A DNA stretch of 64,000 nt, from NCBI GenBank assembly GCA_019192545.1, contig JAHCMI010000012.1, positions 62,001 to 126,000 of the forward strand, in the 5' to 3' direction. Origin of the DNA: Rivularia sp. MS3. GTDB taxonomy: Bacteria > Cyanobacteriota > Cyanobacteriia > Cyanobacteriales > Nostocaceae. The position numbers and the translations under genes were made by a program. This document shows, piece after piece, positions 47,707-62,192 of the stretch (positions are counted from its first letter, which is position 1; each line of letters begins with the position of its first letter). Under the pieces are notes generated by a model. It made no database searches, was not told where the DNA came from, and saw only the letters and a list, made by a program, of their open reading frames with translations.

Positions 47707-47902
47707 ATATCCTATTTTCTGTACCTTTACCCATCGATTCAACAACCTGCGGTCAATGTATAGATATTTATCTATGATTACGATTATAAATATCAAGGTT
47801 ATGATGGACAACTTGATGAAATAATTAATCTTGTTTTAATTTCTAAAGTTGTAAATCACTTTGAAAAATTTTCTTTTGCAAACTAAAATTCAACAAAATA
47901 GC

Positions 47903-55918: not shown

Positions 55919-56162
55919 ATTAAATCAAAGGTTTGAATGCTTCAACTTGATTGAAACCATTCAAATCGATGATTATTAAGCCTATAAATGCGCGCACCTT
56001 TTCCACCGTATAAAGATTACCATAATAATGGTTATTTTTTTCGCAAATAAAATAATAAAGAACCGATAAAACAATGTTAAGTTTCCGGGCGGGGCTTTGC
56101 GTGAGATTGGTATCATTCTTAGACTAGGAAATATACAAATCCTGTTCTATAAAAAGCTTGCC

Positions 56163-59162: not shown

Positions 59163-59663
59163 ATGTTTGGCAGACCTCAACCAATACAACCAGAACCCGG
59201 ACAAGAATCAGTATGGGATTACCCTCGTCCCGCTGTATTACAAGATACCGATAAACATATTCAAATTGTTTTCAACGGCGAAACCATCGCAGACACCAAA
59301 CGAGCCAAGCGCGTTATCGAAACCAGTCATCCTCCCAGCTACTATATTCCTCCCGAAGATGTAAAAATGGAATATTTAATTCAAACACCCCATTCGAGTT
59401 TTTGTGAATGGAAAGGGATTGCGAATTATTACACTATTAAAGTTGGCGATAAAGAAGCACAGAATGCAGCTTGGTTTTACACAAATCCCACAGAAAAATT
59501 TGTACCTCTCAAAGATTATGTAACTTTTTACGCTCACCCAATGGATGCTTGTTATGTAGACGGTGAGAAAGCCGAACCACAACCGGGAAATTTTTACGGT
59601 GGTTGGATAACTAAAGATGTAGTCGGGCCATTTAAAGGAATTCCCGGTAGTTGGGGGTGGTAA
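59163..59663 (+). CDS. DUF427-family protein
   Basis: 166 residues, the usual size. DUF427 marks are the N-terminal VWDYPRPAVLQDTDKHIQIVFNGETIADTKRA in part, SHPPSYYIPPEDVKMEYL, FCEWKGIANYYTI, AAWFYTNP and FYAHPMDACYVDG. Structures of the family show a beta barrel with a buried pocket, but no activity is established. Cytosolic. The start has no strong ribosome binding site. Not linked to its neighbours by an obvious operon. Confidence 0.9.
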   Translation: MFGRPQPIQPEPGQESVWDYPRPAVLQDTDKHIQIVFNGETIADTKRAKRVIETSHPPSYYIPPEDVKMEYLIQTPHSSFCEWKGIANYYTIKVGDKEAQNAAWFYTNPTEKFVPLKDYVTFYAHPMDACYVDGEKAEPQPGNFYGGWITKDVVGPFKGIPGSWGW

Positions 59664-59667
59664 GAAA

Positions 59668-59760
59668 AGTTAGGAGTTAGGAGTTAGGAGTTAAGAGTTA
59701 GGAGTGAATTATAAATACTGATAACTGTTCACTGTTCACTGCTCACTGTTCACTGTTCAC
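59668..59760. repeat. GTTAGGA and ACTGTTC heptamer repeats
   Basis: A run of GTTAGGA units (59669-59703) and then CACTGTT/CACTGCT units up to the 3' end of the HNH gene. Confidence 0.85.
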
Positions 59761-60026
59761 TTCCTCTTCCCCCTCACCTGAACTTTCCTATCAGTCTTCT
59801 GCTTCTTCACCCATTTCAAAAACTTCTGCATCTGCGGCTCATCTTTAAGCAAATCGGCAGTATTTAACTCCTTTGCCAAACGGTTATTATCGTAAAGCGT
59901 ATGAACTTGTTTGTGGCAAGCAGAGCAAATATTAATTCTGGGGCCATGTTTACCATTTTTATGTTTGGGAATCAGATGATGAATCGTCAACTTTTCTAAA
60001 TCCCGCTCGCATAATTCACAAATCAT
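59757..60026 (-). CDS. Small HNH endonuclease-like protein
   Basis: 89 residues from the ATG at 60026 (the frame extends to a TTG at 60047). The HNH core is CELCERD, TIHHLIPKHKNGKHG and INICSACHKQVHTLYDN, with the two CxxC pairs for the structural zinc and the paired His of the nuclease site. A Lys-rich tail follows. Such stand-alone HNH proteins nick or cut DNA; whether this one serves repair, defence or is a remnant is unknown. Heptamer repeats flank it on both sides. Confidence 0.8.
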   Translation of the reverse strand: MICELCERDLEKLTIHHLIPKHKNGKHGPRINICSACHKQVHTLYDNNRLAKELNTADLLKDEPQMQKFLKWVKKQKTDRKVQVRGKRK

Positions 60027-60134
60027 AATATTAAGGTTAAATGTCAAGGGTCAAAGGTTAAATAAAATTCTAATTAATAACTCATAATTTCTAACTCCTA
60101 ACTCCTAACTTCATCTTCTCCTATGCCCAAAAAT

Positions 60135-61130
60135 TCATTTTTCAAATATTAAATAAGTCCCCCCCAAGCCTTCTAAAATAGTTCGCGTATTGGCTGTCAT
60201 CATCTTTTGATAAGTATCTGCTCCGCTTCCAGGTACGCCTAAGCTTTCTGTAAAAAGCTGCCTCTGGGATATATTTACCCGTGCTTCTTTAGCTACGGAT
60301 TTGATTAATTCAGGGCTGATTGTAGGCTGTGCAAATATTGTAGGTACTTGGGTTTTTCCTAAAGATTTAGCTAGTAATTTAACTTTAGTATCTGATGTTT
60401 GCTCTCTAGGACTAATAAATCTTAGGGTTCCCGCTAATTTCAAACCATAAGCACGAACATAGTAAGCCATCTCATCATGAGTTGTGACTAAAGTGCGTTT
60501 CTTCGGAGGAATACTTTCAATTCTAGTTTTTATCCAACTGTCTAATTCTGAAAGTTGCTTCTTTATTTTTTTAGTATTACTTTGATATAGATTAGCATTT
60601 TCTGGTATTTCTCTGGCTAAATTAATACTAATTACATCTACCATTTTGGCAGCATTTTTAGCATTATGCCATACATAAGGGTCGGCGACTTTTTTACCAT
60701 TTCTAGTTATCATTAATGGTGTAGGTACGGCTATTTTAGCCACGGGAAGCTTTGGTGCTTTATTTTTACTTGAAATAATAAATTTTTCTAATCTCGGTTC
60801 TAAGTTATAGCCGTTAAAAATAATTAATTTAGCTTGATTTATTGCCTGTTGGTCTGCTGGTGTTGGCTGATAGACTTTAGGATTTATTGATGGAGAAGTT
60901 AAACAGTTAAGATTAATTGTTTTTCCTGCAATTTGTTTTGTTAAGTCGCATAAAACACTTGTTGTTGCAACTACTAAGGGTAAATTTTTCTTAATGGTAG
61001 TAGTAGTTACAGTTGTTGTATAAGAGGAAGTTCTGTTGGAATTATTAGAATTATTACAGCCATAAATTGATACAGTAATTAAGACAAATATAATACGCAA
61101 AGCTTTGTGTAAAGGTAGTTTTTCTAACAT
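60135..61130 (-). CDS. ZnuA/MntC-like metal-binding lipoprotein with altered ligand residues
   Basis: 331 residues from the ATG at 61130, which gives a lipoprotein signal ending SIYGC (Cys25); the frame extends to 61166. The cluster A-I binding protein fold is clear (VVATTSVLCDLTKQIAG, IIFNGYNLEPRLEKFI, TTHDEMAYYVRAYGLKLAG, GADTYQKMM). Of the four metal ligands expected for the family, the first His (normally PHxY) reads PKVY, the second (normally DPHVW) reads DPYVW, the third His in THDEMAYY is kept and the acid (normally FAE) reads FAQ. No permease or ATPase is adjacent. A Fur/Zur-like box lies upstream. Metal binding is therefore doubtful or altered. Confidence 0.88.
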   Translation of the reverse strand: MLEKLPLHKALRIIFVLITVSIYGCNNSNNSNRTSSYTTTVTTTTIKKNLPLVVATTSVLCDLTKQIAGKTINLNCLTSPSINPKVYQPTPADQQAINQAKLIIFNGYNLEPRLEKFIISSKNKAPKLPVAKIAVPTPLMITRNGKKVADPYVWHNAKNAAKMVDVISINLAREIPENANLYQSNTKKIKKQLSELDSWIKTRIESIPPKKRTLVTTHDEMAYYVRAYGLKLAGTLRFISPREQTSDTKVKLLAKSLGKTQVPTIFAQPTISPELIKSVAKEARVNISQRQLFTESLGVPGSGADTYQKMMTANTRTILEGLGGTYLIFEK

Positions 61131-61188
61131 ATGCCTATAATTAATATTTGTTTGAATTTGTCGCATAAAAGTTGTTTATTTCAATCAG

Positions 61189-61201
61189 AATGATTATCAT
61201 T
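61189..61201. promoter_or_regulatory. Fur/Zur-like box between divergent genes
   Basis: AATGATTATCATT, a 6-1-6 palindrome of the Fur family, 41-59 bp from the two divergent start codons. The position next to a ZnuA-like gene favours Zur. Identical 13-mer at 19743-19755. Confidence 0.65.
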
Positions 61202-61241
61202 GTCACTGAGACAAATATTTGATTAGCATCAAGATATTGTA

Positions 61242-62192
61242 ATGACTATAAATACAATTAATGCATCTTCAGATTGTGAACTTGTCATAGCTTTGATGGG
61301 TAAAGGCGGAACTGGTAAAACTTTTACTTCACTTGGTTTAATTCAGGCTTTGAGAAAGTTGGATAAAGCAATGATTGTAGCGGATGCCGATACTAACAGA
61401 TCGCTTTCGCGCTATCTTACTGCCCACTATTTGGCATATGGGGAGGAGGAGCTAAAGCAACTTCCCTTGATGACTCAAGCAGAAAAGGATTTTTACGAAT
61501 TCCAGCAACTTGATTCAGAAAAAACCTATCGAGAATTTTACGGTACTCCATTCAACCAAGTTAAGAAATTTTCAGTTGAAACACCGGACTTTTTTACCCA
61601 AAAGTACATCACAAATCTCGACGAAAAGCTTGCGTTGATGTCTGTGGGAACCAGCGCTATGCGTATAGAAGAACTTTATTCTACCCGTTGTTCCCATGCA
61701 ACGTTAAATCCGTTAAAAGCTTGGTTGGCTTTATCTACAAATGGAATTGTAGTTCTTGACTGCGGTGGTGGTGAAGATTCCGGTAGATTTGGTTTGCCTA
61801 TTGGCGCGAATGTAGTGGTGGTAGTGGTAGAAGCAACTCCCGACGCGATCGCGATTTCCGAAGATATTCGAGCTATTGATGAAGAATTGGGAATTCCCGT
61901 AGTTTACGTTTTGAATAAATGTCTCAATCAGTTTCCCGAGGTTGAAGCTTTTGAAGCGGAACATCAGGATACCATTGTGGGTAAAATTCCTTTTATGCCT
62001 ACAATTTATGGAAAAAATCCTTTGGAAGTGTTTGAGGAAATTGAACCTATATTTACTCCAATACTGGAGAAAATTCTCGCTCAGAAATTAAGTACTCCTC
62101 AGCAAAGATGGCAAAGAGTACTCAGATGGCAAGAAAGATTGCAGCAGCAACGAGAAACTAGCAAAAGTCAACCCTTTAGTTTCATTTCTTAA
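61242..62192 (+). CDS. CooC/MinD/ParA-like P-loop ATPase
   Basis: 316 residues. The deviant Walker A is LMGKGGTGKTFTS (two Lys, SIMIBI class), the second box VADADTNRSLSRYL, and VVLDCGGGEDSGRFG equals the Walker B region. The later VVVVEATPDAIAISEDIRAIDEEL and VYVLNKCLNQFPE resemble CooC/MinD proteins that load nickel or other cofactors or position complexes. No Cys pair typical of a metallochaperone is seen apart from Cys in LDCGG and NKCLN. It is divergent from the ZnuA-like gene and shares the Fur/Zur-like box, so a role in metal delivery is possible. The last ~30 residues are Gln/Arg-rich. Confidence 0.82.
   Translation: MTINTINASSDCELVIALMGKGGTGKTFTSLGLIQALRKLDKAMIVADADTNRSLSRYLTAHYLAYGEEELKQLPLMTQAEKDFYEFQQLDSEKTYREFYGTPFNQVKKFSVETPDFFTQKYITNLDEKLALMSVGTSAMRIEELYSTRCSHATLNPLKAWLALSTNGIVVLDCGGGEDSGRFGLPIGANVVVVVVEATPDAIAISEDIRAIDEELGIPVVYVLNKCLNQFPEVEAFEAEHQDTIVGKIPFMPTIYGKNPLEVFEEIEPIFTPILEKILAQKLSTPQQRWQRVLRWQERLQQQRETSKSQPFSFIS

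Follow-up and report, generated by a model that had tools for sequence, protein, structure and literature searches.

The closest described systems to the protein considered here are the zinc-binding proteins ZnuA and AztC (PF01297, cluster A-I), with a His-His-His-Asp metal site, and the manganese-binding lipoproteins PsaA and MntC; for PsaA (1psz) we take the ligands to be His67, His139, Glu205 and Asp280. It is easily assumed of proteins with the ZnuA fold that they take up zinc or manganese. AdcAII and Lmb are orphan zinc lipoproteins, encoded apart from their transporter with the zinc ligands kept, whilst pseudoenzymes retain a fold whose active site has been lost.

A gene of Rivularia sp. 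MS3, lying within the 64,000 nucleotides analysed (the window), encodes a protein that resembles each of these in part. With ZnuA and AztC it shares the fold family, a lipobox, the conserved Cys pair, one His ligand and a Zur-like promoter box, but it carries Lys-Tyr-His-Glu in place of their His-His-His-Asp, has no permease or ATPase beside it, and falls below the 350-bit equivalog cut-off of the NCBIfam AztC model (NF040870) at 192.3 bits, as do the two other PF01297 copies of the genome (267.4 and 238.9 bits). PsaA (1psz) is its top profile match among solved structures, yet the His-His-Glu-Asp set of PsaA is not retained. It resembles AdcAII and Lmb in being encoded apart from a transporter and differs from them in its ligands; unlike in the pseudoenzymes, the lost site is here the metal site of a transport protein, and has been lost many times within one orthologous family.

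60135-61130, minus strand: orphan ZnuA-like lipoprotein gene (open reading frame; Pfam ZnuA match of 236.6 bits; Met13 in all 45 aligned sequences; lipobox Cys37 in 130/130 family members)

The predicted product is a full-length ZnuA-fold lipoprotein: the match to PF01297, against a cut-off of 29 bits, covers profile positions 1-262 of 263, which agrees with an earlier, sequence-only reading of the gene as ZnuA-like, and the lipobox cysteine is present throughout the family by alignment and inspection. The longest open reading frame spans 60135-61166 on the minus strand, and its Met13, at 61130, is probably the true start, as that reading had chosen, since this column holds Met in every aligned sequence, the window protein included, and in one genus relative a TAG stop shuts the frame just 5' of this point (the open reading frame there is 996 bases). 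A broken gene, which the earlier reading had thought less likely, or a sequencing error can be ruled out: from Met13 onwards no stop interrupts the frame in any of the six genus relatives (77-91% identity), and the ratio of non-synonymous to synonymous change (omega) is well below 1. The nearest copies among named records belong to Calothrix parasitica, Rivularia, Richelia and Plectonema (76-82% identity). The source genome, of 9.19 Mb, contains three PF01297 genes plus one weak fourth match; the other two each adjoin an ABC ATPase and a permease and encode His-His-His-Asp ligands, and no transporter gene was found at the locus of the 60135-61130 gene, bearing out its description as an orphan.

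The metal-ligand positions of the window protein are as follows.

60876-60878, minus strand: ligand position 1, Lys97 for His (PKVYQP), from PsaA alignments; His in 46/130 family members and in 21/21 ZnuA controls
60675-60677, minus strand: ligand position 2, Tyr164 for His (DPYVW), from PsaA alignments; His 72, Tyr 57 and Phe 1 of 130 family members
60477-60479, minus strand: ligand position 3, His230 kept (THDEMAYY), from PsaA alignments; His in 69/130 family members
60246-60248, minus strand: ligand position 4, Glu307 for Asp (LFTESL), from PsaA numbering; Asp 69 and Glu 19 of 130 family members; decays with the His set
60327-60329, minus strand: Gln280 (FAQP), the conserved Glu of ZnuA and probably a neighbour of the site, from PsaA alignment and column analysis

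Aligned to PsaA, with the PsaA numbers given above, the ligand set thus reads Lys97, Tyr164, His230 and Glu307. The fourth position was placed by counting along PsaA (1psz), where the single offset that fits His67, His139 and Glu205 puts Asp280 on Glu307; the same numbering excludes Gln280 (FAE/FAQ) as the fourth ligand, and Asp317 (ADTYQ), another candidate, was rejected in favour of column 307. Among the 151 columns conserved in the 22 controls, decay in step with the three His is also greatest at column 307 (difference 0.61), with column 162 close behind (0.59). According to a paper on AztD, the zinc in AztC is bound by Asp279 (PMC6689063).

The sequence-only reading had counted three of four ligands as replaced. 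Three positions do differ (Lys, Tyr, Glu), but one of them is an acid-for-acid change, and it lies at 307 rather than 280. PKVYQPTP and DPYVW do lack the first and second His, with Lys97 and Tyr164 aligning to these residues of PsaA, and the His of THDEMAYY is indeed kept, His230 being the third ligand; FAQ for FAE, on the other hand, cannot be scored as a lost ligand, residue 280 lying outside the ligand columns by PsaA numbering. The mapping of ligand columns that this reading had proposed therefore upholds its first two positions as non-His, and moves the fourth from FAQ to Glu307. Judged from these alignments, the window protein has two ligands lost, one acid exchanged for another (Asp to Glu) and one kept; it departs from the His, His, His/Glu, Asp set of functional cluster A-I, and its canonical metal site is gone. 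Zinc scavenging via the usual site is unlikely, since the mature protein has just two Cys and two His in total, the latter at 167 and 230. Nor is the change a matter of chance, because genus relatives share altered sets (KYHE twice, KYNE three times and QYHE once in the six of our sample) and the same columns have been lost repeatedly across the family.

To place the gene among its relatives, 145 genomes of the same taxonomic family were searched, and best matches were sorted by their own best match to three reference proteins, which yielded one orthologue in each of 130 genomes, together with 21 ZnuA proteins and one MntC-like protein as controls; these genomes are drawn from one family, and other families were seen in part. 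The orthologues form one side of a branch that separates them from the controls with 95% SH-aLRT support. A separate search of the remaining 15 genomes returned eight more open-frame orthologues, three that were in pieces or partial, and none in four genomes, among which is an assembly that is 54% complete. In one of the disrupted cases (genome G014, locus L298) the orthologue lies in pieces with several stops, and the adjoining WD40 and small-protein genes still match. An orphan orthologue with an open frame is hence present in 138/145 sampled genomes. Three His are kept in 41/138, with none of the eight added orthologues keeping all three. By Pfam the protein counts as ZnuA throughout these 138 of 145 genomes from a single cyanobacterial family, though 97/138 of the orthologues have lost one or more of the His ligands at positions 1 to 3. 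Transporter genes were found beside the family gene at 0/130 loci (mostly 5 kb on each side, less at contig ends), as against an ABC ATPase and a permease adjoining the ZnuA control gene at 21/21.

Beyond the family, a search of 194 genomes of the class gave matches with an E value of 1e-70 or lower in 58. Of the 30 loci listed, 24 were examined together with four others, two fragments being left out, and the three His positions were read: three loci proved to be family members, and all 25 complete proteins from outside the family keep three His. Of these 25, 24 are nearer to ZnuA, and one Chlamydiales record is about equally far from ZnuA and from the family. We recognised no report on this protein or on such ligand loss in the literature searched, although a mention under the gene name of the Anabaena PCC 7120 orthologue is possible.

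The window gene is not a single oddity but one instance of a loss that recurs across the family. All four ligands are present in 39/130 family members and none in 29/130, against all four in 21/21 ZnuA controls. Where the first position is not His, it is one of 13 other residues, Lys, Arg and Leu among them; the second is replaced by Tyr or Phe in 58/58 cases; and the third and fourth, the latter other than Asp or Glu in 42 members, are often replaced by Asn, Ser or Gln. Having three His or not requires 11 changes on the best tree by a quick method, nine of which are forced by starred branches, and 15 losses if regain is barred. Position 2 alone needs 10 changes, eight of them forced by starred branches, or 12 loss events with regain barred (second tree).

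The ligands have been lost along with neighbouring positions, and the scaffold has for the most part been retained. Seven columns decay with the His set, namely 307, 162, 250, 95, 280, 253 and 257; their differences run from 0.61 to 0.40, against 0.02 for the median column. Column 280, the FAQ of the sequence-only reading, is among them, and columns 250-257 are possibly close to the mouth of the site. The family has drifted from ZnuA elsewhere too, since about 40 columns that are fixed in ZnuA are loose here, many of them distant from the ligands. As to the order of events, position 1 is missing in 15 of the 19 members with two His, and the first His is gone in 84/89 members with any His loss, which suggests that position 1 was lost first. 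A tree-aware pair test of the His set against Asp307 was not significant (median p 0.25, with few independent pairs), and rescue by extra His or Cys was not seen: whatever the group, the median number of other His is 1 to 2, and 129/130 members have two Cys.

What, then, is retained around the gene? Upstream of it lies a candidate regulatory site.

61189-61207, no strand assigned: Zur-like box between the ZnuA-like gene and the divergent ParA-like gene (17.8 bits, the top match of the 64 kb window)

The weight matrix was built from 11 distinct ZnuA promoter sites and seeded with a consensus, and its 99% null threshold is 9.63 bits; the box, as a sequence match, lies far above this, and boxes at the equivalent place in six genus relatives score 13.9-17.8 bits. 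Elsewhere in the window, Zur-like matches stand upstream of a putative lipoprotein at 47861 (47773-47791, 15.8 bits) and of a protein at 56097 that by inspection is M48-type protease-like (56021-56039, 13.4 bits). Over the 1.353 Mb of the 130 loci, matches of at least 15 bits number 25 before the family gene (20 loci), 26 before a COG0523 gene (22 loci) and 14 elsewhere. At the 99% threshold a box is predicted upstream in 18/41 members with three His, 0/19 with two, 11/26 with one and 6/44 with none; the raw table of ligand loss against box loss is strong, but the tree-aware pair test is not significant, with few independent pairs. The zinc link is not universal, because a box of at least 15 bits precedes the family gene or the COG0523 gene in just 7 of the 44 members that lack all three His.

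In many relatives the ZnuA-like gene closes a run on one strand, which comprises SufE (found at 25 loci), an alpha/beta hydrolase (39), a COG0523 GTPase (54), a WD40 protein (69) and a small secreted CxCxxC protein (58), where SufE was named by inspection and the Pfam names come from the own-genome copies. Clustering of COG0523 subfamily 5 with WD40 and znuABC genes is noted in a 2009 paper (PMC2770081). In the window's genome the COG0523-WD40 run sits on another contig and lacks a ZnuA-like gene, so the window gene stands apart from the run and yet has a box of its own. That run (L276:2117-8258) comprises the SufE, hydrolase, COG0523, WD40 and small-protein genes with a formate/nitrite-transporter-like gene inside, and a second COG0523-WD40 pair is found at L277:3580-5758. 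The small protein (L276:7989-8258, contig 69), which is about 90 aa long and carries a conserved CxCxxC motif, has no Pfam or NCBIfam match in its own-genome copy; its counterparts in relatives are flanked by the WD40 and ZnuA-like genes, and it is possible that they are metal-binding peptides of a zinc-starvation cluster.

By the Nei-Gojobori method on close pairs (these are not mutually independent), median omega comes to 0.246 for members with at most one His (198 pairs), 0.225 for those with three (97 pairs), 0.278 for mixed pairs (242 pairs) and 0.118 for ZnuA (27 pairs). Intact and ligand-less members are under similar purifying selection (omega about 0.25), which is weaker than that on ZnuA, and constraint is weaker in general, given an omega about twice that of ZnuA and the 40 or so loosened columns. 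At the second ligand position, a His codon can reach seven residues by one-step mutation, yet the losses there end solely in Tyr or Phe. On the first tree 12 of 13 losses are to Tyr, with a chance of about 3e-6 under one-step mutation and a transition bias of 4, and for ten loss events, nine to Tyr, the chance is about 9e-5 under one-step mutation; both figures depend on the tree and on taking the losses as independent. That Tyr, and once Phe, is the sole substitute suggests that the cleft still matters.

We consider it reasonably probable that this is a zinc-starvation-linked lipoprotein which has given up metal capture for another role. The reading starts from what was calculated directly, namely the ligand states, the repeated losses and their concentration at the site, the purifying selection, the gene's standing as an orphan and the Zur-like boxes; another job than zinc capture is suggested because the site has been dismantled many times while selection kept most of the rest. 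The protein would have originated as a ZnuA-type zinc-binding protein that lost its link to a transporter, and would be held in the periplasm by its lipid anchor and probably expressed when zinc is short, going by the Zur-like box. It would have retained the scaffold, the Cys pair and the conserved core without the zinc ligands, and with them would have lost high-affinity metal binding. Most likely, a protein or organic ligand would be bound via the scaffold or the remodelled cleft, within the zinc-starvation response. Could the emptied pocket have been refitted around a selected Tyr at the second ligand, for a non-metal ligand or partner, in a repeated, parallel turn to a metal-free binding or signalling protein of that response? 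We offer this more specific version tentatively, as a possibility that we would not yet back.

The main rival is slow decay, in which the protein, redundant beside ZnuA, lost its metal site first with the rest following, and has no function in ligand-less lineages. This would account for the raised omega, for a gene that is in pieces, partial or not found in 7/145 genomes (the 54% complete assembly among them), and for boxes that are rarer without ligands (6/44 no-His against 18/41 three-His members at the 99% threshold), and the near-constant absence of the first His, once any is lost, does look like ordered decay. However, an omega far from 1 and much alike in ligand-less and intact members, frames open in 138/145 genomes, losses that centre on the site, and a second position that accepts Tyr or Phe alone speak against decay, and we think it unlikely.

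Less probable still is a changed metal site, at which a metal such as ferric iron would be bound via Tyr164, Glu307, His230 and others. Ferric-binding proteins have metal sites of Tyr, His and acid residues, the window protein does possess His230 and Glu307, the repeated changes at position 2 end in Tyr in 57/58 replaced members, and 5/130 members have Tyr-Tyr-His at the three His positions. Against this, the first position takes 13 non-His residues, Lys, Arg and Leu included, the third and fourth are also lost, often to Asn, Ser or Gln, and no one replacement set is common to the members. An auxiliary subunit of the cell's own ZnuABC, docking metal-free on the permease and tuning uptake, is the least likely, for although the genome has two complete transport systems of this type elsewhere and the gene has a Zur-like box, columns 250-257, which may be near the mouth of the site, decay with the ligands, and a genetic link to a transporter is lacking at 130/130 loci.

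The family spans the range from a complete metal site to none and has lost this site many times independently within one orthologue, which makes it a natural test bed for the function of a metal-less scaffold.

Two features of the immediate surroundings may be added. Downstream of the gene, at 59163-60047 of the window, are DUF427 and HNH genes (by Pfam), whose relatives occur near the family gene at 29 and 15 loci, respectively. On the other side, the divergent ParA/MinD-like ATPase gene (61242-62192) has its promoter region in common with the ZnuA-like gene, and adjoins it in 6/6 genus relatives and at 0/94 of the other loci compared.
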